A stretch of DNA of 64,000 bases, from NCBI RefSeq assembly GCF_012927185.1, contig NZ_JABBGB010000001.1, positions 558,001-622,000 on the forward strand, written 5' to 3'. The notes beneath the pieces are model-generated. The model was not told the DNA's origin. It did not search any database and was given only the letters and a program-made list of their open reading frames with translations. Both the position numbers and the translations under genes were made by a program. Within the stretch, counting starts at the first letter, position 1. Each line of letters opens with the position of its first letter. The DNA is from Pseudoflavitalea sp. G-6-1-2 (lineage in GTDB: Bacteria; Bacteroidota; Bacteroidia; Chitinophagales; Chitinophagaceae). Shown piece by piece: positions 17,544 through 32,425 of this stretch.

Positions 17544-18767
17544 TCAGGTTCTCAGAAAAAATTGAAAGATAAATTGCCCCCACCTGCATGCATCATTAAA
17601 TGATTGCAATGGTCCATCATGCTGAGTATACATTTCTCTGATGGCCAGTTGCTCATCAGTTATAGCAAATGCAGGAAAAAAGATCGAAAGGTATAATGGA
17701 CTTTTAATATTGCTTCTTCCACGTTTTGTTGACGGAGCATAGAGATCCGGCGGGCCCGGCGGCATGTGAAGCGCAGCCATGCATTTTGAACGAACCCGAA
17801 AAAACTGATGCATGAGTTGTTGCAGAGCAGCATCCGGGCCCGCCTCTTTTTCCAATTGCTGCATAAAAAAGTGCAGATCGATAAATCCAAATGCACCTGA
17901 TGGCGTAAGCTCTCCGCAATGTTCACGCGCGCGACGAATGGCAAAGAACAATTCTTCTCTTCCCGGCTCAAAGCAGGGCATCATCCAATCTGTGAGTGCA
18001 TTCACGCAATTAACAATTTCATCATACGCATGTGTATAGTTGGCGGAAAGACTTACCAGATTGGGATCCTGCTCATCTGCGTATCTATTCTTCCATTCGC
18101 TTAGAAATGGTTCTTCATGATATCTTGGGAGAAAGTTTTGCGTAATATTTTCCCCGATTGCCTGCAGCGAAGAATCAGGATCTGCCTCCAGCATCGCAAA
18201 TAATTTCGCATAGTGTATACCGTAAAAAGTAATGGTAGTCTGCGGAGCAACGATCATGTCTGCAACAGCTCTGAGCATAAAACCGGTTTCCAGCAGCTGC
18301 ACGTAGCAGCACAAAGGAACCAGTACATCTACCTTTCCGATACTTTGCCGGATGATGTCTGCCAGCTGTTTTGCCGTCATCATTTCAATTCCGCCATCTG
18401 CATTTCGCTGTGCAAAGAATCCCATTCCGGCTCCATGTCCTTTCATTATCAGCAGGTGCTTATGTGATGGATCAGCAGTCCCTACGGGTTTTACTATTTC
18501 GTTAAAAAATTTCAGCAACGAATGCGAATCAAAGATGTCTGCAGGATAACTATCGATTGTTTTTAAGATGGGTAAGTTGTTGTGAAATGTCAATTCCTTC
18601 ACTTCAGCTTGTTTCTTCTGCAGATGAAAGTAAAAAAATACATACCTTAATCTGCCGGTCAGACGCTGCTGCAAGATGGATTGTTCCACTTCATCATACA
18701 CATGATCGTGTATTCCATCGTGAAAAATCACAATAGAAACGGTCCAGGTGCTTATACTACGAGCCAT
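17544..18767 (-). CDS. Clostripain-like cysteine peptidase (family C11, caspase fold), cytoplasmic
   Basis: A 407-residue protein starting at ATG 18767 (MARSISTWTVSIVIFHDG). Caspase-fold features are visible: an initial hydrophobic strand TVSIVIFHDG, a strand plus LLIMKGHGAGMG with candidate catalytic His111, and KVDVLVPLCCYVQLLE with candidate nucleophile Cys153 or Cys154, followed by ADMIVAPQTTI, all as in C11 peptidases, where the motif is usually DxC. No signal peptide is seen, so it probably acts inside the cell. The frame runs on to 19034, but that extension overlaps the divergent kinase gene and is unlikely. It converges with the acidic protein gene and is divergent from a large sensor kinase. 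Substrate unknown; C11 enzymes usually cut after Arg or Lys. Confidence 0.75.
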   Translation of the reverse strand: MARSISTWTVSIVIFHDGIHDHVYDEVEQSILQQRLTGRLRYVFFYFHLQKKQAEVKELTFHNNLPILKTIDSYPADIFDSHSLLKFFNEIVKPVGTADPSHKHLLIMKGHGAGMGFFAQRNADGGIEMMTAKQLADIIRQSIGKVDVLVPLCCYVQLLETGFMLRAVADMIVAPQTTITFYGIHYAKLFAMLEADPDSSLQAIGENITQNFLPRYHEEPFLSEWKNRYADEQDPNLVSLSANYTHAYDEIVNCVNALTDWMMPCFEPGREELFFAIRRAREHCGELTPSGAFGFIDLHFFMQQLEKEAGPDAALQQLMHQFFRVRSKCMAALHMPPGPPDLYAPSTKRGRSNIKSPLYLSIFFPAFAITDEQLAIREMYTQHDGPLQSFNDACRWGQFIFQFFLRT

Positions 18768-18789
18768 ACATGATTTGATTGCTGTTGTT

Positions 18790-21700
18790 TTGGGAGAGAA
18801 AAGAGGAATAGCAATCATCGCCCTTATCCTTTGTTGCCGGTTAACGGCACAGGAAACTGCTTTTGTTCCCATCACCGGATTGAGTGTTGCCAATGGTCTC
18901 TCCAGTTCCAATATAAGAAAAATAGTGCAGGACAAATATGGCTTCCTCTGGATTGCCACACAGGATGGATTGAACCGATTCGACGGACGACAAGTTGAAG
19001 TGCTCAATGCAGGCAACAAAATTTTTTCGCGCAACCTGCCTGGTCAGGATATCTTCGACATCATCCCCGACTCCACCGGAAATTATCTCTACGCCTTATT
19101 TTCATATGAAGGCTTATCAAAAATCGATCTTCGAACGGTGAGCGTTGTAAACAACTACACACACCTTAACGGAAAGGGACAACCGGACTACTGGAACAAA
19201 TGCCTTGCGCGAAAAGGCAACCTGCTCTACATCGGCACCAACGAAGGAACAGTAATCGGTTTCGATACAAAAAAAGAATCGGAGTTCTTTCGTTTCAGAA
19301 CAACTGAGCTCTTCGATAAATCATATGCTGTAGACAAAATAAAAGTTACCGAAGAAGGACTGCTCTATCTCTTTCTTTCAGGAAAAGGCATTGTGCTCTA
19401 CGATCCGGTGCAGAAAAAAATGATCCGGTTCATCAGCACAGCAGAACTCTACCTGAACGAAGATGGGTTTCAGTTTACCGACGTAGCTGAACATGCAGGT
19501 CTCTTTTGGATCACCACCAGCATGGGATTGCGATGCCTGGCGCTGCGCACCAATCAGATCCAGTATCCGCGCAAACTGCAGACCACGCCTGCCCTCTGGT
19601 TTCTCAATAAATACCTCAGCAGTGTTTCTGTATACAATGGCAAAGTGTTGTACAGCGGAAAAGACGGCTTATTCCAAACCGACTCCACGCTCGACAATCC
19701 GGTTCACATCAGGCCTACACGCAGCCATGAGAACCAGGATTTCTTCGAGCTTGCCAACTGCATTTACCAGCAGGGACCGGTGATATGGGTAGGATCGCAA
19801 TACGGCATCGCGTGGGTGAAAAATCGTTTCTCACCTTTCATGGGACTGAGCAATTCGCTCAATGGAAATGGCAACCGCATCAAACACTCCATGGGACTGT
19901 TGCCAATTTCAGATTCAGTGCTCGCAGTGTGTTCAGATGATGCATTGTTCTTTGCCAACCATCGAACCGGTTCATTGGAAAAATTTTCGGTGCCTGATTT
20001 TTATATGTCGGTTTTCAAAGTGCCCGGCAATCTTTTTATTGCTTCCGGAGATCAGGGTTTCCAGTTGTTCGATGTTGAAGGAAATTCGCTGTCACTCGAA
20101 AAATACTTTCCGGAACTGAAATCCATCAGTCGTGATCTGCTGATCGGCGCTACCAGTTTTGCCGATTCACTGATCTTCATGGCAAGCCAGAATCAGAAAG
20201 GATTGCATTGCTGGAATGTTCTACGGGGAACCGTCAGCACCATCAACACGCAAAGCGCAGGTGTGAGATTGCAAAGCAATGTGATCAACCGTCTCTTTGT
20301 TGATTCTCGCAAAAGACTGTGGATACTCTGCGATAATGTTATTTCGGTGTACGATGTGCGCAGTAACTCAATGCAGCATATCACGCTTCACGATCCGGTG
20401 CAACAGAAACCGCTGAGTGTGATCATGGATATCTGCGAAGCCGCTAATGCATTCTGGCTCGCAGTCTACGGCGTTGGCATCGTTTCATTGAAAGAAGATC
20501 TCTCCATCAAAACAATCTACGCACACCGTAACGGCATCAACAATGTTGGTTTGTACAAGCTGATGAAACTTTCAGACAGTACGTTGATGGCCAGCAGCAA
20601 TAATGGATTGAGTGTACTGAACATCCGTTCGGGAAAGGCCATGAACTATTTTGAAGAAGATGGATTGCATTCCAGCAGCTTCGAAGAAACCAGCGGTGCT
20701 GTCTCCGGTAATTTTCTTTTTTTCGGCGGCTTCAACGGATTCACCAGAATTGATCCGAAGAAGATCAGCAGCAGTCCGCCTGCACCGGTCCTGTATTTTT
20801 CCACTGCCAGTGTTAGCACAGAGGCCAGTTCTGCAGACACGCTCGATATTTTTATGAAGCACCTGATTATTCCCGAAGATGCTTCACAGGTTACCATTCA
20901 TTTCTCTGCAGTGAACTTTACAAGCCCGGAGAAAGTACGCTATCAGTACATGCTGAATCCCATCAGCAAACAATGGGAAGATGGCGGGCATGAACCTTTT
21001 CTTAACCTGGTGGGCATTGGTCCGGGTACATACACTTTACAGGTAAGAGCCAGCAACGAAGCAGGTGTATGGAGTGAACCTGTTCAACTGGTATTGCAAT
21101 TTGAGCCGAAGTGGTTTCAGACATGGTGGTTCACAGCCCTGCTGATACTGGTGGGTATTCTTATTGCCTTTGTGTTGTATCGCATGCGCATGCATCAGCT
21201 CGCGCGCGAAGAAGGCATCAGAAAAAAACTCTCCAACGATCTGCACGACGATCTCGGCAGTACGCTCAACAGCGTGAAAGTACACGCCAATCTCGCACTG
21301 CTCGATCCTCAGAACAACCTGCATCTGCAACGCATCAAAGAAAGCGTACAGCAAGCCATCGTGAGCACCCGCGATCTCATTTGGGTACTCGACGACAAGA
21401 AAGATACCGTAGATCATCTGGTAAGCAGACTGATGCAGTTCGCAGAACCGCTCTGCGATTCGCAGGGCATATCACTGAAGAAAGACATCAGCACCGATGC
21501 CTGGAATGTAAAGCTGGGAAAAGAAGAGAGAAGAAATCTCTACATGATCATGAAAGAGTCGATCAACAACAGTATCAAATATGCATCCTGCAGTTCCATC
21601 ATTCTTCAGATGCACTATATCAATAAGCGATTGCACATTACAGTTAGTGATAATGGGAAAGGCTTTGATCCCGCCACAGTAACGCCAGGCAACGGCACTA

Positions 21701-21795
21701 TCAATATCCGGTCGAGAGCCGAAGCGGCAGGCTATCTGTCGAATATTTATTCTGCTCCGGGAAAAGGAACTTCCGTTCAGTTATCCAAACAATGA
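18790..21795 (+). CDS. Beta-propeller sensor histidine kinase (Reg_prop, Y_Y_Y, HisKA_3, HATPase)
   Basis: A roughly 1001-residue membrane sensor. No ATG is available at the N-terminus. The TTG at 18790 gives a good signal peptide (GEKRGIAIIALILCCRLTA), and GTG 18748 or TTG 18775 are alternatives. Propeller repeats such as GLSSSNIRKIVQDKYGFLWIATQDGLNRFDG (shown in part: YGFLWIATQDGLNRFDG) open the periplasmic region, a Y_Y_Y domain precedes the membrane segment (about 780-800), and the HisKA_3 box LSNDLHDDLGSTLNSVK carries phospho-acceptor His819. The C-terminal ATPase has NNSIKYASCSS and DNGKGFDP. It converges with a NarL-type regulator gene (stops adjacent), its likely partner. This type is often tied to sensing of polymers or surface signals. 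Confidence 0.9.
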   Translation: MGEKRGIAIIALILCCRLTAQETAFVPITGLSVANGLSSSNIRKIVQDKYGFLWIATQDGLNRFDGRQVEVLNAGNKIFSRNLPGQDIFDIIPDSTGNYLYALFSYEGLSKIDLRTVSVVNNYTHLNGKGQPDYWNKCLARKGNLLYIGTNEGTVIGFDTKKESEFFRFRTTELFDKSYAVDKIKVTEEGLLYLFLSGKGIVLYDPVQKKMIRFISTAELYLNEDGFQFTDVAEHAGLFWITTSMGLRCLALRTNQIQYPRKLQTTPALWFLNKYLSSVSVYNGKVLYSGKDGLFQTDSTLDNPVHIRPTRSHENQDFFELANCIYQQGPVIWVGSQYGIAWVKNRFSPFMGLSNSLNGNGNRIKHSMGLLPISDSVLAVCSDDALFFANHRTGSLEKFSVPDFYMSVFKVPGNLFIASGDQGFQLFDVEGNSLSLEKYFPELKSISRDLLIGATSFADSLIFMASQNQKGLHCWNVLRGTVSTINTQSAGVRLQSNVINRLFVDSRKRLWILCDNVISVYDVRSNSMQHITLHDPVQQKPLSVIMDICEAANAFWLAVYGVGIVSLKEDLSIKTIYAHRNGINNVGLYKLMKLSDSTLMASSNNGLSVLNIRSGKAMNYFEEDGLHSSSFEETSGAVSGNFLFFGGFNGFTRIDPKKISSSPPAPVLYFSTASVSTEASSADTLDIFMKHLIIPEDASQVTIHFSAVNFTSPEKVRYQYMLNPISKQWEDGGHEPFLNLVGIGPGTYTLQVRASNEAGVWSEPVQLVLQFEPKWFQTWWFTALLILVGILIAFVLYRMRMHQLAREEGIRKKLSNDLHDDLGSTLNSVKVHANLALLDPQNNLHLQRIKESVQQAIVSTRDLIWVLDDKKDTVDHLVSRLMQFAEPLCDSQGISLKKDISTDAWNVKLGKEERRNLYMIMKESINNSIKYASCSSIILQMHYINKRLHITVSDNGKGFDPATVTPGNGTINIRSRAEAAGYLSNIYSAPGKGTSVQLSKQ

Positions 21796-22449
21796 TTACA
21801 CATGCACAATGCCGTGCTTGATGGCATAAATGGCTAATCCTACACGTGTTTTTATTTTGAGTTTCTCGAAGAGGCTGTCTCTGTATCCGTCGATGGTACG
21901 CGGACTAAGATGCATTTTATCTGCAATTTCTTTGTAGGTCATTTCGGAGCAGCTCAGTTTGAGGAACTCCAGTTCGCGGTCGTTGAGGTTAAGCACTTTG
22001 CGTGTTGCGCCTTCGTCGTCTGACTGATTGATGGTATGCAGCAGTTTGCCCGTGATCATTTCGGTATAGTAGAAACCTTTGCTGAGAACCGCTTCTATGG
22101 CTGATTTCAGCTCAGGAGTATCGGAATCTTTAAGAATATATCCACGTGCTCCGTTTTTCAGCATGCGGATGATAGCGGCTTCATCGTCGTACATGCTGAG
22201 TGCAAGCACTTTTACATCCGGACGATTTTGTTTGAGCCATCCGGCAGTTTCGTATCCGTCCATCTGCGGCATGTTGATGTCCATAAGCACTACCTGCGGT
22301 TCAATTCCATTCTCCAGTTTCTGGATGAAGTCTTTGCCGTCGCTCGCTTCTATCACTACCTGATGGCCGATATTGCGCACGAGAGCAGCCAGTCCGTTTC
22401 GAAGCAGCACATGATCATCTACCAGGCCAACTGTTATATTTTCCGTCAT
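21796..22449 (-). CDS. NarL/FixJ-type response regulator
   Basis: A 217-residue two-domain regulator: receiver domain with DDH (residues 11-13), phospho-acceptor Asp57 in VLMDINMPQMDGYE and the switch/Lys region ARGYILKDSD, then a LuxR-type helix-turn-helix with LNDRELEFLKLSCSEMTYKEI and LSPRTIDGYRDSLFEKLKIK. It is preceded 9 bases upstream on the same strand by the kinase-like gene at 22459-23139 and converges with the propeller kinase, so it can receive input from one or both. Confidence 0.95.
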   Translation of the reverse strand: MTENITVGLVDDHVLLRNGLAALVRNIGHQVVIEASDGKDFIQKLENGIEPQVVLMDINMPQMDGYETAGWLKQNRPDVKVLALSMYDDEAAIIRMLKNGARGYILKDSDTPELKSAIEAVLSKGFYYTEMITGKLLHTINQSDDEGATRKVLNLNDRELEFLKLSCSEMTYKEIADKMHLSPRTIDGYRDSLFEKLKIKTRVGLAIYAIKHGIVHV

Positions 22450-22458
22450 ACATTGTTT

Positions 22459-23139
22459 TTAATGGGTCAAAGGCAGGGTCAGGAAGATGGCCAGCTCACC
22501 GTCTGCAGATCCGGAGATTTGCAGATTTGCATTGATCAGTTCGGCCCTGATCTGCATCTGGCGGGCATCATCGGGAAGTACCTCCTGTGCAATGCCCGGC
22601 TTAACGGTATGAAGCAACGGATTATTGCTTACTAAAAACCGAACGTCCGATTCGCGCAATTCGGCGCTTGCCAGAATGGGTCTCTTGCCACTCACTTCCA
22701 CAAAGATAGCCAGCAGTTCCTGTAAAAGTCTGAAGGCAATCAGTTCACTGGCCTGATCGAATCTATCGATTTTTTCGTTTACGGTGAATTCGATTTTACG
22801 GTTGTAGATACGGCCGAGGGTTTCCATTTCATGAGCCAGGGCAAAGAGCAATCCTTTGTCTCTGATCTCGGTGATGGTAACGGGCCTTGCCACCTGGCGG
22901 AGGTCCTGAATGGCCTTTCCTACCAGCTTCCTCGAAGAAGCAATCGATTTATAGAGGTTATCTTTTTCCAGTGGTGCATGCGAACTCAGCTGCAACTTGG
23001 CCAGGCTCAATACCTGACCTACATTGTCAAATATTTCTGCGCTGATCATTTCAAGCTCACGTTCCTGTATTTCGAGTTGCACACGAAGCAGTTCTTCTCC
23101 CAACCGGTCACTCTGCTGTTCAATTCCGGATGTCATCAT
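22459..23139 (-). CDS. Degenerate histidine kinase-like protein (phospho-acceptor His replaced by Phe)
   Basis: A 226-residue soluble protein with a coiled N-terminus and the dimerisation helix of HisKA_3 kinases, EISAEIFDNVGQVLSLAKLQL in outline (AEIFDNVGQVLSLAKLQL). Where functional kinases have HD, this protein has Phe37-Asp38. The following region lacks the N box and the DxGxG of a working ATPase domain; it ends in LQISGSADGELAIFLTLPL, which keeps the fold. It is most likely a non-catalytic dimerisation/adaptor protein for the regulator encoded 9 bases downstream. Start at ATG 23139; a TTG two codons upstream is also in frame. Confidence 0.8.
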   Translation of the reverse strand: MMTSGIEQQSDRLGEELLRVQLEIQERELEMISAEIFDNVGQVLSLAKLQLSSHAPLEKDNLYKSIASSRKLVGKAIQDLRQVARPVTITEIRDKGLLFALAHEMETLGRIYNRKIEFTVNEKIDRFDQASELIAFRLLQELLAIFVEVSGKRPILASAELRESDVRFLVSNNPLLHTVKPGIAQEVLPDDARQMQIRAELINANLQISGSADGELAIFLTLPLTH

Positions 23140-23242
23140 TATCAATGTTTACTAGGGTAGAAACCAGTGAATGGTCTCCATAGCAACGTTAATACCTGAT
23201 GGGCAGAATTCAACCGGGAAAAACACGGTAATTGATGAAGGG

Positions 23243-24145
23243 TTAATTCACCGGAGGAGGGTCGTTATCGATCCAGTACTGGCTATATTCATTTTTCCAG
23301 TCATGTTTCCAGCGGCGATGGCTCCAGAGCCACATTTCGGGATGTTCGCGAATGGCATTTTCGAGAAAGCGGATATACCTTCGGGTAAGTTCTCCAACGG
23401 GAAGCTCTGAAGGATTTTCTGCTCCCACCTCCAGATAAACCCGGTAATAGCCGCGGCGGGTTTTATAGATCTGAGCAAATACAACGGGTATATTGGCAAT
23501 GCGCGCGCCGTTCTCAGGCCCGCGTACAAAAGGAGTAGGTTTTCCAAAGAAATTGAGCCAGTAGGCATTGGCAGGGCTGCCCGGCGCCTGATCTGCCACC
23601 AGCGCAAGTACATAGTTGGTATGCCTGAACGGAACGATAGCTGTTCGCATATTGGTGGCCGGTAACATGGTAGATCCGGTTCTGGTACGAAGATGCATGA
23701 ACAATCGTTCCATCGCCTTATTCTTGATGGGCATATACACTACCAGAAACTTATGCTTTGTAAAGAAGGGCATCGACACATTCGCCATTTCCCAGTTGAA
23801 ATTATGACCGAGATGCAACTGGCATTTCCGGCCCTGATCGAGAAAGGTCTCAAATGCTGCGCTATCCAGCTGAAATCTTTTCAGGATCCATTCTTTACTG
23901 GCCGACAGCAACTTGATGGTCTCGATGAAATTATCCACGAAGTTTCTGTAGAACTGCTTCGCAATCTTCTTTCTTTCTTTCAGGCTTTTTTCAGGGAAGG
24001 CAATAGTGATGTTGTCGAGCACCACTTTTCTTCTGTAACCAATAACATGATATACCAGTGCGGCGAGTATGTCTGCAAAGCCATACAGAAACCACATCGG
24101 TAAGAGAGACATGAGATACAGTAATCCGTAAATCAGATAGTACAT
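23243..24145 (-). CDS. Lipid A/lysophospholipid acyltransferase family protein (LpxL/HtrB-like)
   Basis: A 300-residue membrane-associated acyltransferase. The N-terminal hydrophobic anchor (LIYGLLYLMSLLPMWFLYG) and the HxxxxE motif in LGHNFNWEMAN (with the surrounding CQLHLGHNFNW) are typical of late lipid A acyltransferases, which add secondary acyl chains to lipid A at the inner membrane. ALVADQAPGSPANAYWLNFFGKPTPFVRG also matches the family (shown in part: ALVADQAPGSPANAYWLNFF). It follows the AmgK-RapZ gene with 20 bases between, on the same strand. Donor chain and acceptor cannot be read from sequence. Confidence 0.88.
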   Translation of the reverse strand: MYYLIYGLLYLMSLLPMWFLYGFADILAALVYHVIGYRRKVVLDNITIAFPEKSLKERKKIAKQFYRNFVDNFIETIKLLSASKEWILKRFQLDSAAFETFLDQGRKCQLHLGHNFNWEMANVSMPFFTKHKFLVVYMPIKNKAMERLFMHLRTRTGSTMLPATNMRTAIVPFRHTNYVLALVADQAPGSPANAYWLNFFGKPTPFVRGPENGARIANIPVVFAQIYKTRRGYYRVYLEVGAENPSELPVGELTRRYIRFLENAIREHPEMWLWSHRRWKHDWKNEYSQYWIDNDPPPVN

Positions 24146-24165
24146 AATTCAACTAAATTCTTCTG

Positions 24166-25614
24166 TCAGGTATTTATCCAATTCTTTGCTTCCTGTTCTA
24201 TATGATGAAGCGTTACCGGAATTTTATACTTGTTTTTGAGATGGCGCGTGAGTGCTTCCGCTGCATATACACTGCGATGCTGGCCTCCTGTACAACCGAA
24301 GTTGACGATAAGGTTTTCAAACCCGCGACGCATATAATCTTCTACCGTAATATCCACCACATCGAATACGCTGTTGAGGAAATCGGGCATGCGTGTTTGC
24401 TGTTCGAGAAAATCTTTCACTTCTTTGTCCCTTCCCGTCATCACTTTGAATTCCTGCAATCTGCCGGGGTTGAGAATACCTCTGCAATCGAATACAAATC
24501 CGCCACCATTACCGCTTTCATCAGTAGGTATTCCTTTTTTGAAGGAGAAGCTGTGAACGCGCACTTTCAATGGCATTTCGGGTGTAGCGGTAAGCGGAGT
24601 GAATCGTTCCATCACTTCATCTCCCACACATATGTCGAGCACTTTTCTGAATTCAGGAACTGATATGCCGAGGCTCTGATTTTCGATGAACCAGCGAAGA
24701 TTGCTCAATGCCTGCGGAATGCTGGTGAGAAACTGCGCTTTTCTTTCGAAGAGGCCGCGGAAACCATATGCACCCAACACCTGCAGCAATCTGATGAGCA
24801 CATATCCGTTGTACTGGCTTTTGAAAATGCCGCGATCTACCGGTTGTCCGATGATGGTTTCAAATGAATCGATATAATCGTTGAGCAGGTTTTCTTTCCA
24901 GGTATCAGGCAGATTTGCCCTGGCCTGCCAGATCATGCTCGCAGCATCGTACTGTGGCGCACCGCGCATGCCACCCTGATAGTCGATGAAATAAACTTTT
25001 TCATCGGGCTTCACCAGAATATTGCGGCTCTGGAAATCGCGGAACATGAAATATTTATACTCCGTGTGCGTGAGGTAAGTGCTCAGCGCTTCGAAGTCGT
25101 CGATCAGTTTTTGTTTGTCGTATGGTTTGCGAAGCGCATCGAGAAAGTAATATTTGAAATACAGCAGATCGGCCATGATGGCTTGTTTGCCGAATTCCTG
25201 ATTGGTGAGGCAACGGCTGTAATCCAGCTCCTGATGGCCTTTCACCTGAAGCTCTGCCAGTGAGTGCAGGCTTTTTTTGAACAGCGCATACACATTATCG
25301 GTAAGTCCTTCTTCTTCGAGTTTATTGAGCAGACTTGTATCGCCGAGATCTTCCTGCAGGTAAATGGTACGGTCTTCACTCCAGGCAATGATGGCCGGAA
25401 CCGGCAATCCTTTTTCCCTGAAATGTTCTGAGAAGTACATGAAGGTATCGTTCTCCGGAACATTATTGCCATGTGTGGCAATGCAGGTTCCGCCTTTCAG
25501 GTGCAATCTGAAATAGCGGCGGTCTGAACCGGATTGTGGTAATACCTCGATATCCAACGGGGCTTCCCCCATGGAAATGCAGAGTTCTTTTATTGCGTCT
25601 ATTACGGCGATCAT
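24166..25614 (-). CDS. AmgK-like sugar kinase fused to a RapZ C-terminal domain
   Basis: A 482-residue fusion. Residues 1-340 are an aminoglycoside-phosphotransferase-fold kinase: GSDRRYFRL near residue 29, FRDFQSRNILV (catalytic Asp193, Asn198) and FIDYQGG (metal-binding Asp211). This fold in AmgK phosphorylates MurNAc/GlcNAc at the anomeric carbon. Residues 350-482 form a RapZ C-terminal domain with GGFVFDCRGILNPGR and FGCTGGQHRSVYAAE (residues 439-453), the module that in E. coli binds glucosamine-6-phosphate and steers GlmS control. The P-loop kinase half of true RapZ is absent. The upstream neighbour is MurU-like, supporting the amino-sugar role. The specificity of the kinase is inferred. 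A candidate -7 box lies at 25635-25642. Confidence 0.82.
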   Translation of the reverse strand: MIAVIDAIKELCISMGEAPLDIEVLPQSGSDRRYFRLHLKGGTCIATHGNNVPENDTFMYFSEHFREKGLPVPAIIAWSEDRTIYLQEDLGDTSLLNKLEEEGLTDNVYALFKKSLHSLAELQVKGHQELDYSRCLTNQEFGKQAIMADLLYFKYYFLDALRKPYDKQKLIDDFEALSTYLTHTEYKYFMFRDFQSRNILVKPDEKVYFIDYQGGMRGAPQYDAASMIWQARANLPDTWKENLLNDYIDSFETIIGQPVDRGIFKSQYNGYVLIRLLQVLGAYGFRGLFERKAQFLTSIPQALSNLRWFIENQSLGISVPEFRKVLDICVGDEVMERFTPLTATPEMPLKVRVHSFSFKKGIPTDESGNGGGFVFDCRGILNPGRLQEFKVMTGRDKEVKDFLEQQTRMPDFLNSVFDVVDITVEDYMRRGFENLIVNFGCTGGQHRSVYAAEALTRHLKNKYKIPVTLHHIEQEAKNWINT

Positions 25615-25634
25615 TGGCTTACTGGTATAGCGGC

Positions 25635-25642
25635 CAAAAATA
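25635..25642 (-). promoter_or_regulatory. Candidate -7 box for the AmgK-RapZ gene
   Basis: Read on the minus strand, TATTTTTG matches TAnnTTTG exactly, 20 bases before the ATG at 25614. It would give the fusion gene a promoter of its own inside the nadB-murU cluster. Confidence 0.4.
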
Positions 25643-25678
25643 GTGAAAAAAGGCCCCGGAAGTGCATTTTGGCTGCAA

Positions 25679-26407
25679 TCAGGAGAACAGTTGCTCCGCT
25701 TTTCCGACGGAATCCGGCTTGCCTACATCGATGAAACGGCTTCCGCTATGGTCGAATGACCGGATTATATGCTCCGAAGCCAGATTGAGGTAAACATCAA
25801 CAATGGAGAATTTTCCTTCCTGAACAATCAACGGGAATATGGCCGGACTGATCACATGGATGCCGCTGAATGCTTTCTGATTCACCACAGAAGACACTCT
25901 CCGGATCTTCTCTTCGCCGGAAGTAACATTTCTCCATCCGGTAAGTGTATCGTTTTCATCGAACAGAAAATACCGGCTGGTAGAGCGGTTGGTAACAGCC
26001 AGTGTGGCAAGAGGAGTATTCTTCCGATGCGATTGCAACATCGCTCCCAGATCGAGATCGGTGAGAATGTCTACATTGATGATCACAATCGGATCGGTTG
26101 TATCGCGAAAAAGTGGCGCTGCTTTTTTGAGGCCGCCACCGGTTTCGAGCACAGCATCGCGTTCGTCGCTGATGGTGATATTGCTGCCCCAGCCATTGTT
26201 TTGATCGATGGCATGGATGATCTGTTCGGAGAAATGATGCACGTTCACCACCACATCCTTGATGCCGTGCTGCTGCAAATATTCAACATTACGTTGCAGC
26301 AACGATTTGCCGTTGATGATCGCCAGCGCCTTGGGATGCTTGTCTGTCCATGGTTTGAAGCGGGTTCCCAGGCCGGCGGCAAAGATCATAGCTGAAGGTG
26401 GTCGCAT
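25679..26407 (-). CDS. MurU-like sugar-1-phosphate nucleotidyltransferase
   Basis: A 242-residue nucleotidyltransferase of the hexose-1-phosphate type. The signature MIFAAGLGTRFKPWTDKHPK (residues 7-26) binds the nucleotide; IVIINVDILTDLDLG carries the metal-binding Asp, and ISDERDAVLETGGGLKKA follows the MurU pattern. MurU makes UDP-MurNAc from MurNAc-1-P and UTP, using the product of AmgK, whose relative is encoded 64 bases downstream. Glucose-1-phosphate thymidylyl- or mannose-1-phosphate guanylyltransferase activity cannot be excluded from sequence alone. It lies 38 bases after nadB on the same strand. Confidence 0.82.
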   Translation of the reverse strand: MRPPSAMIFAAGLGTRFKPWTDKHPKALAIINGKSLLQRNVEYLQQHGIKDVVVNVHHFSEQIIHAIDQNNGWGSNITISDERDAVLETGGGLKKAAPLFRDTTDPIVIINVDILTDLDLGAMLQSHRKNTPLATLAVTNRSTSRYFLFDENDTLTGWRNVTSGEEKIRRVSSVVNQKAFSGIHVISPAIFPLIVQEGKFSIVDVYLNLASEHIIRSFDHSGSRFIDVGKPDSVGKAEQLFS

Positions 26408-26445
26408 GCAGTTGCAGATTTAATTGCGCAAGATATAGGAAAAAA

Positions 26446-28044
26446 TTACAGTACGATATTCTGCACCAGTCTGCTCTTCGCCGGATAATCGGTATTGTAA
26501 TGCAGTCCCCTGCTCTCTTTCCTGAACTGTGCACATTTCACAATGAGATAGCTCACGGTGATCATATTGCGCAGTTCGCAGAGTTGCGGAGAAAGCGTGG
26601 TTGCCTGATAAAGCAGTTCTGTTTCTTCCCAGAGCAGATCGAGTCTTCGCAGTGCACGTTCGAGACGAACATTGGTTCTTACGATACCCACGTAATCACT
26701 CATCACCTGCTGCACTTCTTTGAGGCTCTGCGTAATGAGGATCATCTCTTTGGGATCGGTAGTTCCCTGTGCATTCCAGTCGGGGATCGGAGGAATGGGC
26801 TTGCCGTTCGTCTGTTGTGCTGTGCTGTCGAGAAATGCACGATGCGCAAACACCATCGCTTCGAGCAACGAGTTGCTGGCAAGTCGGTTGGCGCCGTGTA
26901 ATCCTGTACTGGCGCACTCTCCCGCTGCATAGAGATTCCGGATGCTGGTTCTTCCCCAGTCATTTGTTTTGATACCGCCACAACTGTAGTGCGCTGCCGG
27001 TACTACAGGGATCATATCTTTTGTAACATCGGTGCCGATAGAGCGGCATTTCTCGTAGATATTCGGGAAGTGCTCAATGAATTTACTGAGAGGGATATGT
27101 CTAACGTCTAAGTATACGTGCTCTGTACCGGTGATCTTCATTTCGCTGTCGATGGCGCGGGCTACGATGTCGCGCGGAGCAAGGTCTTTGCGTTCATCAT
27201 ATCTTTCCATGAAGGCTTCGCCTTTATTGTTGCGCAATATGCCGCCATCGCCACGCACCGCTTCGGTGATGAGGAACGATTGCCCGCGTACACCCGGCTC
27301 ATACAGCGCAGTTGGATGGAACTGAATGAACTCCATGTTCTCGATCCTGCCTTTTGCACGATACACCATCGCTACTCCGTCGCCCGTTGCGATATTGGGA
27401 TTGGTGGTAGATCTGTACACCTGTCCGTTTCCGCCGGTTGCCAGCAATGTAGTGCCTGCAATGATCTTCTCGATCTGATTGGTGCGCAGGTTCAGCACAT
27501 ACACGCCATAACATTCGATATCGGGAGTTGCTTTGGTAACGAGGTAGCCGAGATGGTGCTGTGTGATGAGATCCACCACAAAGCAATGTTTTACAATTTC
27601 TATATTGGAATGTTCGGCCACTGCTGCGAGCAGGGCGCGCTCAATTTCTTTTCCTGTAACATCTTTGTGATGCAGAATGCGGAACTCCGAGTGGCCGCCT
27701 TCCTTGCCCAGCTTGAAATCGCCATCGGCTTCTTTATCGAACTGCGTTCCCCATTCGATCATTTCATGAATGCGGTTCACTCCTTCTTTCACTACCACCT
27801 CCACTACATTCTTATTGCAGAGGCCATCGCCTGAGATGAGCGTATCTTCTATATGTTTCTCAAAACTGTCGCGCTCAAAATCCGTTACACCGGCAATGCC
27901 TCCCTGTGCGTACTTGGTATTGGTTTCGTCGGCACTGGTTTTGGTGATCACTGTAACTTTCCTATCGGGGTATTTGCGGGCGGCCTTCAAAGCGAAGGTG
28001 AGCCCGGCAATGCCTGAGCCTATCACTAAATAATCGGTCTGCAT
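26446..28044 (-). CDS. nadB: L-aspartate oxidase
   Basis: A 532-residue FAD enzyme that oxidises L-aspartate to iminoaspartate, the first step of de novo NAD synthesis. FAD-binding VIGSGIAGLTFALKAARK lies at the N-terminus, and TKYAQGGIAGV, GKEGGHSEFRILHHKD and PAAHYSCGGIKTNDWGRT, with the AAGECASTGLHGANRLASNS segment, are the NadB/succinate dehydrogenase flavoprotein features. I start at ATG 28044; the TTG at 28056 is also in frame. nadA and nadC are not in the window. It heads a minus-strand run with murU, amgK-rapZ and the acyltransferase. Confidence 0.95.
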   Translation of the reverse strand: MQTDYLVIGSGIAGLTFALKAARKYPDRKVTVITKTSADETNTKYAQGGIAGVTDFERDSFEKHIEDTLISGDGLCNKNVVEVVVKEGVNRIHEMIEWGTQFDKEADGDFKLGKEGGHSEFRILHHKDVTGKEIERALLAAVAEHSNIEIVKHCFVVDLITQHHLGYLVTKATPDIECYGVYVLNLRTNQIEKIIAGTTLLATGGNGQVYRSTTNPNIATGDGVAMVYRAKGRIENMEFIQFHPTALYEPGVRGQSFLITEAVRGDGGILRNNKGEAFMERYDERKDLAPRDIVARAIDSEMKITGTEHVYLDVRHIPLSKFIEHFPNIYEKCRSIGTDVTKDMIPVVPAAHYSCGGIKTNDWGRTSIRNLYAAGECASTGLHGANRLASNSLLEAMVFAHRAFLDSTAQQTNGKPIPPIPDWNAQGTTDPKEMILITQSLKEVQQVMSDYVGIVRTNVRLERALRRLDLLWEETELLYQATTLSPQLCELRNMITVSYLIVKCAQFRKESRGLHYNTDYPAKSRLVQNIVL

Positions 28045-28070
28045 ACTAATTTTCAATTCGGGCGGTAAAA

Positions 28071-28793
28071 TTATGGGTTATTGCGCGATTGCAGATATTT
28101 CCTGCTTCCTGTAACCAGTAACAGCTGAGCCAGGCAATAGGTTGACATTATAAACATGCCAGCGGCAGAAAATGAATGATAGAACTTATCGAAGCCCAGC
28201 ACAGAGTCTGAAATCACAAAGAGCAGCGCTCCTGTAACGCAGAGTGCGCCTGATAATTGTCTCGGAAAATGAAAGGCGTTGACAGCGGCCAGCAGCATGG
28301 TTCCGATCACGGCAGCATACAGCAATACCGGAATTTCCAATGGTCCGGCCCCTTCGCGAAGCAGGTAGAAAAATAGGCCGATATACACCATCACCAGAAA
28401 TACCAGTACCGGATTCCACGGCCTTCCGGGCTTGTTTTGCTTTTTCACTTTCAGAAAAAAGAGGATATAAAAAATATGTGCAATGAGAAAACTGATCAGT
28501 CCTCCGATGAAGTACAACTCGCTTTTTGATGCAAACAGCAGCAGCGTATCTCCTCCGCAGGAGAAGAGCAATGCCAGCTGAATCAATCGCCTTCCTTTCT
28601 TGTCTTCTAATGGATACCCGTTGAACCAGAGCAGCAAAAGCAGCATCAGCAAGGGTTTGGTAACATACCGCATTTGCTCGCAGCCCAGTTGGATGGCTGT
28701 GAGGTCGGCGATGGCATCCAGCAGAAAAAGCAGGAGCCATAGTCTGTTGAATCTACTTTTAACAGGCTGATCAATATTCAATGCTGTAGGCAA
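28071..28793 (-). CDS. YhhN family membrane protein (lysoplasmalogenase-like)
   Basis: A 240-residue protein with about eight hydrophobic segments and the YhhN pattern: VTKPLLMLLLLLWF, SCGGDTLLL (acidic residue in the third segment), FIGGLISFLIAHIFYILFF and FVISDSVLGFDKF. Family members include the animal TMEM86 lysoplasmalogenases; the bacterial activity is not settled. The only initiation codons near the N-terminus are TTG (28793 and 28781), both inside the end of the upstream lipoprotein gene, giving a 23-base overlap and suggesting translational coupling. Confidence 0.85.
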   Translation of the reverse strand: MPTALNIDQPVKSRFNRLWLLLFLLDAIADLTAIQLGCEQMRYVTKPLLMLLLLLWFNGYPLEDKKGRRLIQLALLFSCGGDTLLLFASKSELYFIGGLISFLIAHIFYILFFLKVKKQNKPGRPWNPVLVFLVMVYIGLFFYLLREGAGPLEIPVLLYAAVIGTMLLAAVNAFHFPRQLSGALCVTGALLFVISDSVLGFDKFYHSFSAAGMFIMSTYCLAQLLLVTGSRKYLQSRNNP

Positions 28794-29541
28794 ATTTTGC
28801 GGGATCGTTTACAATTTCCAGCAGATTGTATTTCAGCGTCACGGTTCTTTTATCGTCCGATACTTTCAGCAGTGGATTGGTTACGTTTTTTACGATACGG
28901 GGGAGTTTGAAGTTGGTGGTGTAGGTGATCTCGATGCCCTGTTCGATCATTTTCTTCAGGTCGGATACCATTGGCTTCAGCATGAACTCTTTGAATTTTA
29001 CGGTATCCACTTTTCTGCTGATGAGGCCGTTGGCAATTTTTACATCGTAAACGCCAACGAGATCACTCATGCCGGCATCATCGGGGTTCGAATTGTTAGC
29101 TGGCTTCTGATCAGATTTCCAGAGGCCCGTCATGGTATTGTTCATGATGGTTCCCTGCGACTCCATCAGTTGTTCGAGCTGTCCGGCATTTTGGTATGGG
29201 ATGCGTACATCGATCTTCAGCAGCTTCTCTTTCATATTGAGTTTCAGCGCTACTTTGCCATCTTTCATCCAGGCGATCTTTGCGCGTTGAGCTTCATCTG
29301 CGGAATCGATGATCGACTGCATGGAGATTACCGTATCCATTGGTCTGTCGAGGCCGCTGCTGGTAACTTCTTCATCGCCGATAAAAGCCTGGGCCAGATC
29401 GAGCAATTTGCCCATATCCATCCTCGATTCGAAAACTCCTCCGCCATTTTCATTGACTACCACATCTTCATTCACTTCATAACAGGCAGCCAGTACAAAT
29501 GCAAAGATGAGCACAGAGAGGTATCTCAGGGATTTCAACAT
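28771..29541 (-). CDS. Lipoprotein of unknown function
   Basis: A 256-residue exported lipoprotein. The ATG at 29541 (MLKSLRYLSVLIFAFVLAAC) gives a lipobox with acceptor Cys20; ATG 29553 is an alternative. The mature part is a mixed alpha/beta protein (EDVVVNENGGGVFESRMDMG; ISRKVDTVKFKEFMLKPM) without catalytic motifs. The YEVNEDVVVNENGGG start resembles small Bacteroidota lipoproteins of unknown role. It overlaps the YhhN gene by 23 bases on the same strand. Confidence 0.78.
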   Translation of the reverse strand: MLKSLRYLSVLIFAFVLAACYEVNEDVVVNENGGGVFESRMDMGKLLDLAQAFIGDEEVTSSGLDRPMDTVISMQSIIDSADEAQRAKIAWMKDGKVALKLNMKEKLLKIDVRIPYQNAGQLEQLMESQGTIMNNTMTGLWKSDQKPANNSNPDDAGMSDLVGVYDVKIANGLISRKVDTVKFKEFMLKPMVSDLKKMIEQGIEITYTTNFKLPRIVKNVTNPLLKVSDDKRTVTLKYNLLEIVNDPAKFAYSIEY

Positions 29542-29572
29542 TGGGCGAATCATTTTGCACAAGGTAACAGAT

Positions 29573-30526
29573 TTACCCAATACTTGCCTGATACCAGCAG
29601 CTAAATGTGAGGGTTTGGCGTGGGCTCATGCGTATCAGTCCCATACCGTTATTGAAGCTGTTTGGCGCCGCACTGAGGTTTTCGATGGCGATGCTTTCGC
29701 GGTCGTCGGGTGTGTAGATCTGGAGGTAGGGATACCTGGCATTCACGTAAAAGGCTATCCGGAGCTGGTTTTCAGGATTGTACAGAATGCAGCATGGTGT
29801 ACCTTCTTCGTTGTCGAGCAGAAAGCAGTTATCGAGATGGCGGCTGCCGAGTTCGGCTCCGTACAGAAAGCTATCGTCAAAAACAGTATTTCCGGTAGGG
29901 ATCAGTTTTTCATCGAATTCGAGCAAGGTATCCGAACGGAACTGCAGCTGGTACTGATCCACTTTTCCGCCGAGCCTGAAGTAAGGATGCCACCCATCGC
30001 TCATGGGAATGAAACCATCCGTAAGATTGGTTACTGTTGTCTCCACCTGCAACGCATTATCCGGATGCAGTGAATACTTCACTTCACACATATAATTGAA
30101 GGGAAATCCGGCATCGTCTTTTTTGTATTGATAGCGAAGGCGAACGGCCGCCATATTATCGTCGGCCAGCTGATCTACGAGGTTGAAAGGCTTATTGGCG
30201 AGCAGGCCGTGAATAGCAGAGCCATCCTGAAACCTGTTAGCAAATTCATAAGTTATTTCATCAAAACTGTAGGTACCGCCGGGTATCCTGCAGGCAAAGG
30301 GAGACAGCTTTGCACTCTTGTATGAAAGATGCAGAAATCGTTCGAGATCAGCCTTTCCTGCGTAATTGTCTATAATATTGATCCGGCGGCCATTAAGAGG
30401 TATTTCAAATCCATGAAGAAGGGCGCCGTGGTCTGGTAGTATACTGATTGTTGTGCCAGTTATCTTATCTTGCAATCTGAGAATGTTCAGCTGATCCTCC
30501 GTAATCCGGTCGATTCCAAAGCTCAT
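29573..30526 (-). CDS. Aldose 1-epimerase family protein
   Basis: A 317-residue galactose-mutarotase-fold protein. ATG 30526 (MSFGIDRITEDQLN) is the likely start; the frame runs on upstream to 30871, but that part lies antisense to galK. Beta-sandwich features include PDHGALLHGFEIPLNG, IHGLLANKPFN, VTNLTDGFIPMSDGWHPYF and IAIENLSAAPNSFNNGMG, where the His and Glu residues resemble the catalytic pair. It is divergent from galK with 51 bases between starts, a classical galactose arrangement, so interconversion of galactose anomers before phosphorylation is the likely role. The weaker resemblance to GalM proper leaves a YeaD-like sugar epimerase possible. Confidence 0.82.
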   Translation of the reverse strand: MSFGIDRITEDQLNILRLQDKITGTTISILPDHGALLHGFEIPLNGRRINIIDNYAGKADLERFLHLSYKSAKLSPFACRIPGGTYSFDEITYEFANRFQDGSAIHGLLANKPFNLVDQLADDNMAAVRLRYQYKKDDAGFPFNYMCEVKYSLHPDNALQVETTVTNLTDGFIPMSDGWHPYFRLGGKVDQYQLQFRSDTLLEFDEKLIPTGNTVFDDSFLYGAELGSRHLDNCFLLDNEEGTPCCILYNPENQLRIAFYVNARYPYLQIYTPDDRESIAIENLSAAPNSFNNGMGLIRMSPRQTLTFSCWYQASIG

Positions 30527-30577
30527 AGTATCTTTATTAAATCGTAGAATTTTTAAATTTAAATCATTTTCACTGAT

Positions 30578-31750
30578 ATGCCGATAGTAGAACGTTTGCG
30601 TAAAAAATTCCGGGAATTGTATGGACAGGAACCGATCGTAGTAGCAGCACCCGGACGAGTGAACCTGATCGGAGAGCATACAGACTACAACGAAGGTTTT
30701 GTATTGCCCGGTGCCGTTGACAAACGCATGTACATTGCCATTGCTTCCGTAGCAGAACCGGCCATCACCATCTACGCCAATCAATTCAAAGAAAGTTACA
30801 CTTTCAATCCCACAGAAGAACTTCAACCTGTAACCGGCTGGATGAACTATCTGCTCGGTGTAACTCATCATATCAAAGCTGCGGGCAAAACTATCGGTGG
30901 CGCACAGGTGCTTATCGATGGCGATATCCCTGTTGGTGCAGGCATGAGCTCATCCGCTGCACTCTGCTCTGCATACGGCTTTGCGCTGAACGAATTGTTC
31001 AGTCTCGGACTCACCAGAATGGAACTGGCATTTATCGGACAGAAAACAGAACATACTTTTGTTGGCGTAAAATGCGGCATCATGGATCAGTTCGCCAGTC
31101 TTCATGGCAAACGTGGTCATGTGATGAAGCTCGACTGCCGCAATCTCGAATACGAATACATCCCCTTCGAATTTCCCGATCACAAAATTGTACTGGTGAA
31201 CAGTATGGTGAGCCACTCACTGGCAGGCTCCGAATACAATGTGCGCAGACAACAATGCGAAGAAGGCGTGGGCATTCTCAAGAAATCTTACCCGGCCATC
31301 AACTCGCTGCGCGATGTGAGTCTGGAAATGCTGCAGGAACATCATCACGAATTAACACCGGTGGTGTACGACAGATGCTGGTATGTAGTAACGGAAAAAG
31401 ATCGGCTGCTCAATGGCTGCGAAGCATTGAAACGCGGCGACCTGCAGGCATTCGGCAAACTGATGATCGCCACGCATAACGGCCTCAGCAAACAATACGC
31501 TGTAAGCTGCACCCAGCTCGATTTTCTGGCCGAACGTGCCGGATATATCGAAGGTGTGATGGGATCGAGAATGATGGGCGGAGGCTTCGGCGGATGCACC
31601 ATCAACATCGTTCAGACAGAAGCGGTGGAAGCTTTCACCCATCAGATCCAACGCTCATTCGAAACGCTGTTTCAGGTAACACCCGAAGTGTACGTTACGC
31701 AGATCGAAGACGGCACTCATGTAGTGGTGGGAGATGAAGTATATCACTAA
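30578..31750 (+). CDS. galK: Galactokinase
   Basis: A 390-residue GHMP kinase that makes galactose-1-phosphate from galactose and ATP in the Leloir pathway. The signature GRVNLIGEHTDYNEGFVLP (about residues 26-44) is specific to galactokinase, PVGAGMSSSAAL is the ATP-binding GHMP motif (around residues 115-126), and GSRMMGGGFGGCTINIV near the end is the third motif. It is divergent from the aldose epimerase gene and followed by a strong terminator. galT and galE are not in the window. Confidence 0.96.
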   Translation: MPIVERLRKKFRELYGQEPIVVAAPGRVNLIGEHTDYNEGFVLPGAVDKRMYIAIASVAEPAITIYANQFKESYTFNPTEELQPVTGWMNYLLGVTHHIKAAGKTIGGAQVLIDGDIPVGAGMSSSAALCSAYGFALNELFSLGLTRMELAFIGQKTEHTFVGVKCGIMDQFASLHGKRGHVMKLDCRNLEYEYIPFEFPDHKIVLVNSMVSHSLAGSEYNVRRQQCEEGVGILKKSYPAINSLRDVSLEMLQEHHHELTPVVYDRCWYVVTEKDRLLNGCEALKRGDLQAFGKLMIATHNGLSKQYAVSCTQLDFLAERAGYIEGVMGSRMMGGGFGGCTINIVQTEAVEAFTHQIQRSFETLFQVTPEVYVTQIEDGTHVVVGDEVYH

Positions 31751-31768
31751 CAGATTTCATCAAAATAC

Positions 31769-31807
31769 AAATCGGGCGTATCTGAAAAGATGCGCCCGAT
31801 TTTTTTA
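31769..31807. terminator. Terminator between galK and the DJ-1 gene
   Basis: AATCGGGCG and CGCCCGATT form a long hairpin extended by ATC/GAT pairs, followed by a T tract on the plus strand. Because the DJ-1 gene converges, it may also stop transcripts from that side. Confidence 0.85.
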
Positions 31808-31822
31808 CTAACCCTGTTTGTT

Positions 31823-32425
31823 CTATTCTGCTGCTGCGAGCAGTCTGTTATTCATGCCTGCACTTTTGAAGAGTTCATATACTGCTTCGGTTGTTTCTTC
31901 TTCCAGCACATCGAATTTTTTGAAGATGGCCATCATCATTTCCAGCGCTGCTGCGCCATTGGCTGTGATGATATGCTCGTCACTAACACAAGGCTCGTTT
32001 CTGTAATGCGCGGCGCCATTGTAATCAGGAGCCAGCTCTTTCAGATATTCGGCGCCATTGCTGGTATGCGGAATATGATCGAGAAAGCCATGATTGGCCA
32101 GCATTACCGTAGCTCCGCAAATTGCTGCCACTGTTTTGCCCGCATGCACAAACGATTCTACCAGCATGGTCAGCTCCTGAAAATCGCCATTCTCCCATGC
32201 TTCGCCTCCGGGCAGAAAAAGCAGATCGATCTTCTTCGGATCCACATCGGCCAGTGAATGATCCGGTTCTATTCTAATGTCTCCCATGGATGTTACCGGA
32301 TGTCCATCCAGTGAAAATGTACGGATCATGAAATCTGAATATTTGTTGAGATGCGCTACTGTGTATGCTGCCTCCCAATCTGCATAGCCGTTAAATACGA
32401 ACAGATAACATATTCTCTTTTTCAT
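31823..32425 (-). CDS. DJ-1/PfpI family protein
   Basis: A 200-residue glutamine-amidotransferase-like fold protein. The nucleophile-elbow Cys103 lies in TVAAICGATVMLANHGFLD, with the family Glu equivalent early (WEAAYTV) and IDLLFLPGGEAWENGDF. Relatives act as chaperones, glyoxalases or stress proteins; which one applies is not readable. It is the last gene of a minus-strand set with a GyrI-like protein and a WYL regulator, and may be their regulated effector. Confidence 0.9.
   Translation of the reverse strand: MKKRICYLFVFNGYADWEAAYTVAHLNKYSDFMIRTFSLDGHPVTSMGDIRIEPDHSLADVDPKKIDLLFLPGGEAWENGDFQELTMLVESFVHAGKTVAAICGATVMLANHGFLDHIPHTSNGAEYLKELAPDYNGAAHYRNEPCVSDEHIITANGAAALEMMMAIFKKFDVLEEETTEAVYELFKSAGMNNRLLAAAE

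Follow-up and report, generated by a model that had tools for sequence, protein, structure and literature searches.

What does the C-terminal domain of RapZ do when it is attached to a sugar kinase and not to its own N-terminal half? The question is raised by a gene in Pseudoflavitalea sp. G-6-1-2 (Bacteroidota, Chitinophagaceae), found in a stretch of 64,000 nucleotides (contig NZ_JABBGB010000001.1, positions 558,001 to 622,000), hereafter the window. The gene encodes an AmgK-like kinase continued in the same frame by a RapZ C-terminal domain (RapZ_C), and its upstream neighbour resembles MurU. AmgK is the anomeric N-acetylmuramic acid (MurNAc)/N-acetylglucosamine (GlcNAc) kinase known from Pseudomonas, and MurU is the MurNAc-alpha-1-phosphate uridylyltransferase. 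The comparisons reported here show that the AmgK-like kinase and RapZ_C form a conserved module in a subset of the Bacteroidota.

A kinase and a RapZ C-terminal domain in one frame

The fusion gene (Table 1) has 482 codons and no internal stop. Pfam assigned to its product an APH family match (PF01636, residues 23-248, E 4.9e-11, 43 bits against a cut-off of 23) and the RapZ C-terminal domain PF22740 (residues 349-473, E 2.9e-33, 115 bits against a cut-off of 27), the latter being the sole RapZ_C match in the host genome. The NCBIfam RapZ model was matched only at positions 155-275 of its 278 (E 5.8e-30), so the P-loop half is missing from the fusion protein, and a Pfam search at E 0.001 reported no match of this protein to PF03668, the N-terminal P-loop kinase-like half of RapZ. 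In NCBIfam, the kinase part is matched best by two AmgK models, spanning residues 30-307 and 56-314, and the upstream gene by MurU models (121 and 111 bits, with cut-offs of 250 and 370), which rank first among the 28 families that match it; its top matches in the PDB are 4y7t and 8hhd. The names AmgK and MurU are used here for the nearest relatives, the scores lying under the membership cut-offs. An earlier note, made from the letters of this DNA alone, had described the kinase and RapZ_C in one frame, the missing P-loop half and the MurU-like gene upstream; the domain searches confirm this architecture, and the motifs it quoted (FRDFQSRNILV, FIDYQGG, GGFVFDCRG and FGCTGGQHRSV) are all present in the frame.

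Two motifs of the kinase part contain residues that do not vary in alignment A2 of 63 sequences, namely R192, D193, Q195 and N198 in RDFQSRN and D211, Q213 and G214 in IDYQGG. By analogy with APH kinases, the first is taken to be the catalytic loop and the second the metal-binding motif. An AlphaFold2 model of the fusion protein, built from 63 sequences, had a mean predicted local distance difference test score (pLDDT) of 94.7 and a predicted template modelling score (pTM) of 0.86. The closest solved structure is 3csv, the APH-fold putative aminoglycoside phosphotransferase of Silicibacter (template modelling score, TM, of 0.79 to target; sequence E 3e-10), which differs in that its chain, of 333 residues, has no match to RapZ_C in the alignment. 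Because a Foldseek search with the full-length model returned APH-fold and similar phosphotransferase entries, with no RapZ among the best 50 listed matches, RapZ_C was modelled alone (residues 342-482), and this model matched the C-terminal domain (CTD) of Escherichia coli RapZ, 5o5s, with a TM of 0.92 to target, at 1.6 Å and 34% identity.

Distribution and co-occurrence of the three components

In a survey of 395 sampled genomes of the phylum, host included, RapZ_C was present in 49. Among the other 48 loci, RapZ_C is fused to the kinase in 36, split from it and adjacent in 8, where three neighbouring genes follow the order kinase, RapZ_C and MurU, and located away from it in 4, with the kinase elsewhere in the same genome; RapZ_C is a separate gene in 12 of the 48. 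A MurU-like gene adjoins 29 of the 36 fused and all 8 split loci, and in the remaining 7 fused cases it was found elsewhere in the genome. Beyond this triad, the neighbourhoods vary between lineages. The order of the genes is also shared, with MurU downstream on the same strand in 29/29 fused survey loci having an adjacent MurU and in 54 of the 56 loci from named genomes (described below) in which MurU was seen, the exceptions being L147, with MurU on the opposite strand, and L149, with MurU in the same frame. In the window, MurU lies upstream of the fusion gene, the reverse of that order, which implies that the pairing of kinase and MurU outlived a rearrangement. As a separate observation, the lone RapZ_C genes L066, L067 and L070 have no kinase or MurU in their vicinity, and both are encoded at other places of these genomes, the kinase at 257-335 bits and the MurU-like gene at 122-129 bits. 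An artefact or chance frame was considered and rejected, as the frame is intact and the architecture is widely conserved, being the same in 36 of the 48 other survey loci.

When a profile built from just the kinase part (A3, 19 rows) was run over the same 395 genomes, two classes lay well apart: a strong one of 50 genomes, each scoring at least 257 bits, and a weaker one of 84 genomes from a single family (f18), none above 153 bits. This clean split is partly built in, since all rows of A3 come from RapZ_C-bearing genomes and its composition favours kinases of that type. The strong class was present in 49/49 RapZ_C genomes, including the 4 with the two parts located apart, and RapZ_C was present in 49 of the 50 strong-kinase genomes, the single exception being G009, although shared descent inflates these co-occurrence counts.

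A scan of named genomes with the search patterns NGGG[FY]VFD and GCTGGQHR yielded at least 585 relatives, of which the best 80 were examined; all 80 are fused and 56 have MurU in the stretch, some stretches being short, and the set, picked by similarity to the window query, does not give a frequency. These loci include Parabacteroides, Bacteroides, Phocaeicola, Muribaculum and a metagenome-assembled genome (MAG) of Tannerella sp. (L143), as well as Ignavibacteria, a Calditrichia MAG, a Delongbacteria MAG and Acidobacteriaceae. In a Bacteroidaceae MAG (L149:4965-7247, + strand), kinase, RapZ_C and MurU are joined in one frame of 760 amino acids (aa), which is possibly an assembly error. In the genus of the Tannerella MAG, RapZ_C was found in 7/21 genomes, in open frames of 481-512 aa.

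The second phylum, Acidobacteriota, was surveyed in 99 genomes, including the Acidobacteriaceae MAG G395, which was itself chosen for its fusion. The strong kinase was found in 3/99 genomes (398-408 bits, the next best being 195), and these are exactly the genomes having an additional RapZ_C in the open frame of the kinase, besides an ordinary RapZ elsewhere. In three such genomes compared by sequence (G395-G397), the P-loop and NPHF belong to the ordinary RapZ, and NPGR together with GNGGG or GHGGG to the fusion. In seven other genomes of this phylum (G436, G441, G477, G484, G493, G514 and G520), RapZ_C scored 148-154 bits in open frames of 499-635 aa, which exceed the length of an ordinary RapZ; these correspond either to long upstream open frames or to further RapZ fusions. 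The three arrangements, together with the second phylum, argue against mere inheritance of the link between kinase and RapZ_C, and the co-occurrence hints that the wider job of RapZ_C lies in sugar-phosphate metabolism and not in RNA control.

The RapZ_C subfamily and its candidate roles

A tree of 75 domains (the 49 survey domains, 22 taken from the 80 named loci and 4 canonical RapZ) placed the fusion-type RapZ_C apart from the canonical ones with support of 100/99. The split and lone domains are nested within the fused ones, which suggests that they may have arisen by fission of a fused ancestor, in a tree whose deep forks are weakly supported, with bootstrap values not settled and a small outgroup. 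In relation to RapZ of E. coli and its Bacillus subtilis counterpart YvcJ, the likeness of the window protein is confined to the C-terminal domain, including the CTGGxHRS loop and the strand read as FVFD in the window and YVFD in E. coli; the AmgK-like kinase stands in place of the P-loop half, Trp191 is replaced by Arg, and a GNGGG insertion precedes the strand. The glycines G370-G372 of this insertion are invariant in 49/49 phylum sequences as well as in the 63 sequences of A2, whose loci were gathered partly through the pattern NGGG[FY]VFD, and the insertion is missing in E. coli RapZ and in 3 canonical RapZ of Acidobacteriota.

The anion pocket of E. coli RapZ is described as H190, T248, G249, H252 and R253, holding sulphate or malonate, and the YVFD strand as mediating self-interaction of the CTD (PMC5737377); the isolated CTD is reported to bind glucosamine-6-phosphate (GlcN6P) with a KD (dissociation constant) of 10 nM (PMC7073468). 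Four of these five pocket residues are kept in 49/49 genomes of the phylum survey, and the C, T, G, G, H, R and S of CTGGxHRS (E. coli C247, T248, G249, G250, H252, R253 and S254) are invariant in the same 49 domains, which were found by hidden Markov model. The loop is also kept in the 80 named loci, a count that adds little because that set overlaps the survey (two pairs of identical domains) and was gathered partly through the pattern GCTGGQHR.

His190 is reported as needed for control of GlmZ by E. coli RapZ, in a paper that also lists the RNA contacts (PMC9841335). In the window protein the contacts H190, K194, R211, R238 and K251 are replaced by G, E, Q, F and Q, K170 and R184 are kept, R196 is kept conservatively, and the basic tail is lost, with 4 Lys/Arg in the last 25 residues against 8 in E. 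coli RapZ. With the pocket loop kept and most RNA contacts lost, the small-anion pocket is under stronger selection than the RNA surface. PF03668 (RapZ_N) had no match in the host genome and none over its cut-off in any of 198 sampled genomes, where one sub-threshold fragment of 32 residues was seen, and Rfam gave no match at the gathering threshold in window positions 20000-32000, the stretch covered by the RNA search. An ordinary RapZ or RNA adaptor was accordingly rejected as the identity of the protein.

Here it is proposed, with moderate confidence and ahead of the alternatives, that RapZ_C acts as a sugar-phosphate-binding control and dimerisation module on a MurNAc salvage kinase. The fusion kinase would be the first enzyme of MurNAc, and possibly GlcNAc, salvage of the AmgK/MurU type, making a sugar-1-phosphate which the MurU-like neighbour would turn into a UDP-sugar, and RapZ_C would be an accessory domain that serves this kinase subfamily specifically. 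Most likely it would dimerise the kinase through the FVFD strand, and most likely its CTGGxHRS pocket would bind GlcN6P or a closely related amino-sugar phosphate, so that the supply of cell-wall precursors may set the salvage flux by direct allostery, without a small RNA. The earlier note had suggested that the fusion couples RapZ_C to amino-sugar recycling; this coupling is strongly supported by the fusion, the adjacency, the triple fusion and the near-perfect co-occurrence. Its proposal of a role without GlmZ fits the replaced RNA contacts and the negative RapZ_N and Rfam searches, and we infer, as it did, that RapZ_C may sense GlcN6P and control the kinase. The AmgK/MurU route is reported in few species, among them Tannerella forsythia of the Bacteroidia, where MurNAc salvage is assigned to it (PMC13046382; PMC7670621), and AmgK and MurU of T. 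forsythia, expressed in E. coli, are described as a positive control in MurNAc-labelling work (PMC13041923), so an AmgK/MurU pair from Bacteroidota can work.

In addition to the composition of A3 and shared descent, several points weigh against this proposal. The AmgK models score 46 and 43 bits on the kinase part, against equivalog cut-offs of 550 and 500, and with the MurU scores also far under theirs, the substrate is a putative one. The glycine at E. coli His190 (G384 in the window protein) was found in 49/49 survey and 80/80 named sequences, at a position outside both search patterns, and therefore GlcN6P binding is not simply transferable and the ligand may differ. In G009 and in the 3/3 f18 genomes opened, of 84, the kinase gene abuts a MurU-like gene or overlaps with it, and the pair lacks RapZ_C, which means that RapZ_C is not needed for the chemistry and belongs to one kinase subfamily. 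The three f18 kinases have RDFHSRN or RDFHCRN and IDFQDA, differing from RDFQSRN and IDYQGG of the window kinase, and G009 has RDFQSRN and IDYQGG. Among RapZ_C-free pairs, the MurU-like proteins of L162, L163 and L168 were also observed to be 310-319 aa long, about 70 residues longer than that of the window. The ligand, the activity and the oligomer are predictions from sequence and models, and the C-X5-R-S loop, together with published hints of catalysis, fits an enzyme as well as a sensor.

This enzyme, ranked second and clearly less probable than the control module, would be cysteine-dependent, with RapZ_C processing an amino-sugar phosphate through a phosphatase-like loop and not only sensing it. 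C-X5-R-(S/T) is the signature phosphate loop of protein tyrosine phosphatases, and the window loop C441-TGGQH-R447-S448 fits it between a strand and a helix in the model, as the strand 434-441 ends at Cys441 and the helix 447-463 starts at Arg447, both residues being invariant in 49/49. Among the 224 fold matches of the RapZ_C model with E up to 10, however, there was no phosphatase in the best 50, and the next best E-value listed after RapZ itself was 0.18. In E. coli RapZ, C247A and C247S are reported to abolish activity, with a possible catalytic SH suggested by the authors, and density in a CTD crystal with GlcN6P is read there as a likely chemically transformed product (PMC9841335). Phosphatase activity is reported for B. 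subtilis YvcJ (PMC7525490), although it may reside in the P-loop half of that protein, and ATPase and phosphatase activity of Xanthomonas HpaP is named in the title of a paper cited by PMC7073468, which refers to the HpaP and YvcJ papers regarding mutant phenotypes in distant species.

As a specific form of this activity, RapZ_C could make MurNAc from MurNAc-6-phosphate in genomes with AnmK and without MurQ, feeding the attached AmgK. In Pseudomonas this step belongs to MupP, a MurNAc-6-phosphate phosphatase of the unrelated HAD family (PMC5371407). The 49 RapZ_C genomes fall into all four classes of AnmK/MurQ, with 17 +/+, 15 +/-, 4 -/+ and 13 -/-, so that AnmK is present in 32/49 and full-length MurQ in 21/49; the classes were read by eye, full-length MurQ meaning at least 260 bits to TIGR00274, which we take to be MurQ (G091 and G292 are just under the 302-bit cut-off), and an AnmK fragment at a contig end in G216 was counted as present. 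AnmK without full-length MurQ was thus seen in 15/49 RapZ_C genomes against 0/20 of the RapZ_C-less genomes tested (of 346). These 20 all have both genes; they were not sampled at random and are for the most part closely related to the window genome. If RapZ_C made MurNAc from MurNAc-6-phosphate it should track AnmK, and it does so only in part; AnmK is missing in 17/49 RapZ_C genomes, 13 of them also without MurQ and hence with no obvious MurNAc-6-phosphate, and the host itself has AnmK and two MurQ-type genes. AnmK and MurQ are no clean predictors of RapZ_C. HAD phosphatases could also supply the step. A universal role as MurNAc-6-phosphate phosphatase is weakened by the 17 genomes lacking AnmK. 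An extension of the enzyme idea is more speculative and somewhat less probable again, namely that RapZ_C at its root was a cysteine-dependent amino-sugar-phosphate enzyme of wall-sugar salvage, with the Bacteroidota module displaying the older role of feeding MurNAc to the fused kinase and E. coli RapZ being a later reuse of the pocket for small RNA binding and GlcN6P sensing.

It is unlikely that RapZ_C serves only as a scaffold for dimerisation or solubility, with the pocket conserved as a structural relic or as the holder of a structural anion. The YVFD dimer strand, kept as FVFD, and the confident prediction of both domains as one unit (by pTM) agree with a scaffold, but a scaffold alone needs no invariant CTGGxHRS pocket, and RapZ_C persists as a separate gene in a quarter of the other survey loci, including the four in which it does not adjoin the kinase. 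Less likely still, the kinase may have a different substrate, such as a heptose or some other anomeric sugar, with the MurU-like gene making another nucleotide sugar. The low AmgK and MurU scores, as well as a match of the neighbour to an HddC-type guanylyltransferase model in NCBIfam (65 bits), are in line with this, whereas AmgK and MurU are nonetheless the best NCBIfam matches of the two proteins, and their assignment to MurNAc salvage in T. forsythia, together with the fusion in the Tannerella sp. MAG, may point to MurNAc. It is very improbable that RapZ_C moonlights on the kinase as an RNA-binding adaptor of the E. coli RapZ kind, since the retained K170, R184 and R196 are outweighed by the five replaced contacts, the loss of the basic tail and the negative Rfam search.

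Neighbouring genes and wider significance

The window MurU-like gene resembles MurU in its best NCBIfam matches and differs in scoring under the curated cut-offs, and its function is a prediction. Downstream of the fusion gene, a lipid A-type acyltransferase gene is perhaps on the same transcript; it adjoins the fusion in 2/48 other loci (L052 and L061) and stands outside the conserved module.

Table 1. Features of the fusion gene and its immediate neighbours in the window
Feature	Coordinates	Strand	Basis
Fusion gene, AmgK-like kinase and RapZ C-terminal domain, 482 aa	24166..25614	-	Open frame, domain matches, AlphaFold2 model
Kinase part, APH match, residues 23-248	24871..25548	-	Pfam; alignment of the kinase region reaches about residue 335
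RapZ C-terminal domain, residues 349-473	24196..24570	-	Pfam and fold match of model
Presumed kinase catalytic-loop motif RDFQSRN, residues 192-198	25021..25041	-	Alignment A2
Presumed kinase metal-binding motif IDYQGG, residues 210-215	24970..24987	-	Alignment A2
GNGGG insertion, residues 368-372, before YVFD-like strand; mark of fusion-type RapZ_C	24499..24513	-	Alignments
Pocket loop CTGGQHRS with the C-X5-R-S pattern, residues 441-448; equivalent to E. coli C247-S254	24271..24294	-	Alignments, model
MurU-like nucleotidyltransferase gene, 242 aa, 64 bp upstream of fusion gene	25679..26407	-	Pfam, NCBIfam, PDB matches
Lipid A-type acyltransferase gene, 20 bp downstream of fusion gene	23243..24145	-	Pfam

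Further away, the window has a protein of 269 aa (28771-29580, - strand) that looks like a lipoprotein by eye and gave no Pfam match at E 0.001, and a large protein resembling a sensor kinase (18748-21795, + strand) that lies tail to tail, with adjoining ends, with one resembling a response regulator (21796-22449, - strand), both read by eye.

No description of RapZ_C on an AmgK-type kinase was found in the open-access literature searched. The parts are of known kinds, and the architecture, the tight coupling and the features of the subfamily are new as far as searched. RapZ has been studied mainly as an enterobacterial RNA adaptor, and the structural paper on the E. coli protein left the possible catalytic cysteine and the transformed ligand unexplained (PMC9841335). 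Here the domain occurs without the RapZ N-terminal half and attached to an enzyme from a known kind of metabolic pathway, in genomes including Bacteroides, Parabacteroides and Phocaeicola, and the fusion gives a direct biochemical handle on what the RapZ_C pocket binds or does. In Pseudomonas, MurNAc salvage is reported to be linked with the recycling of the wall and with intrinsic resistance to fosfomycin (PMC5371407); for the bacteria carrying the fusion, the module predicts that MurNAc salvage is under an additional level of control.

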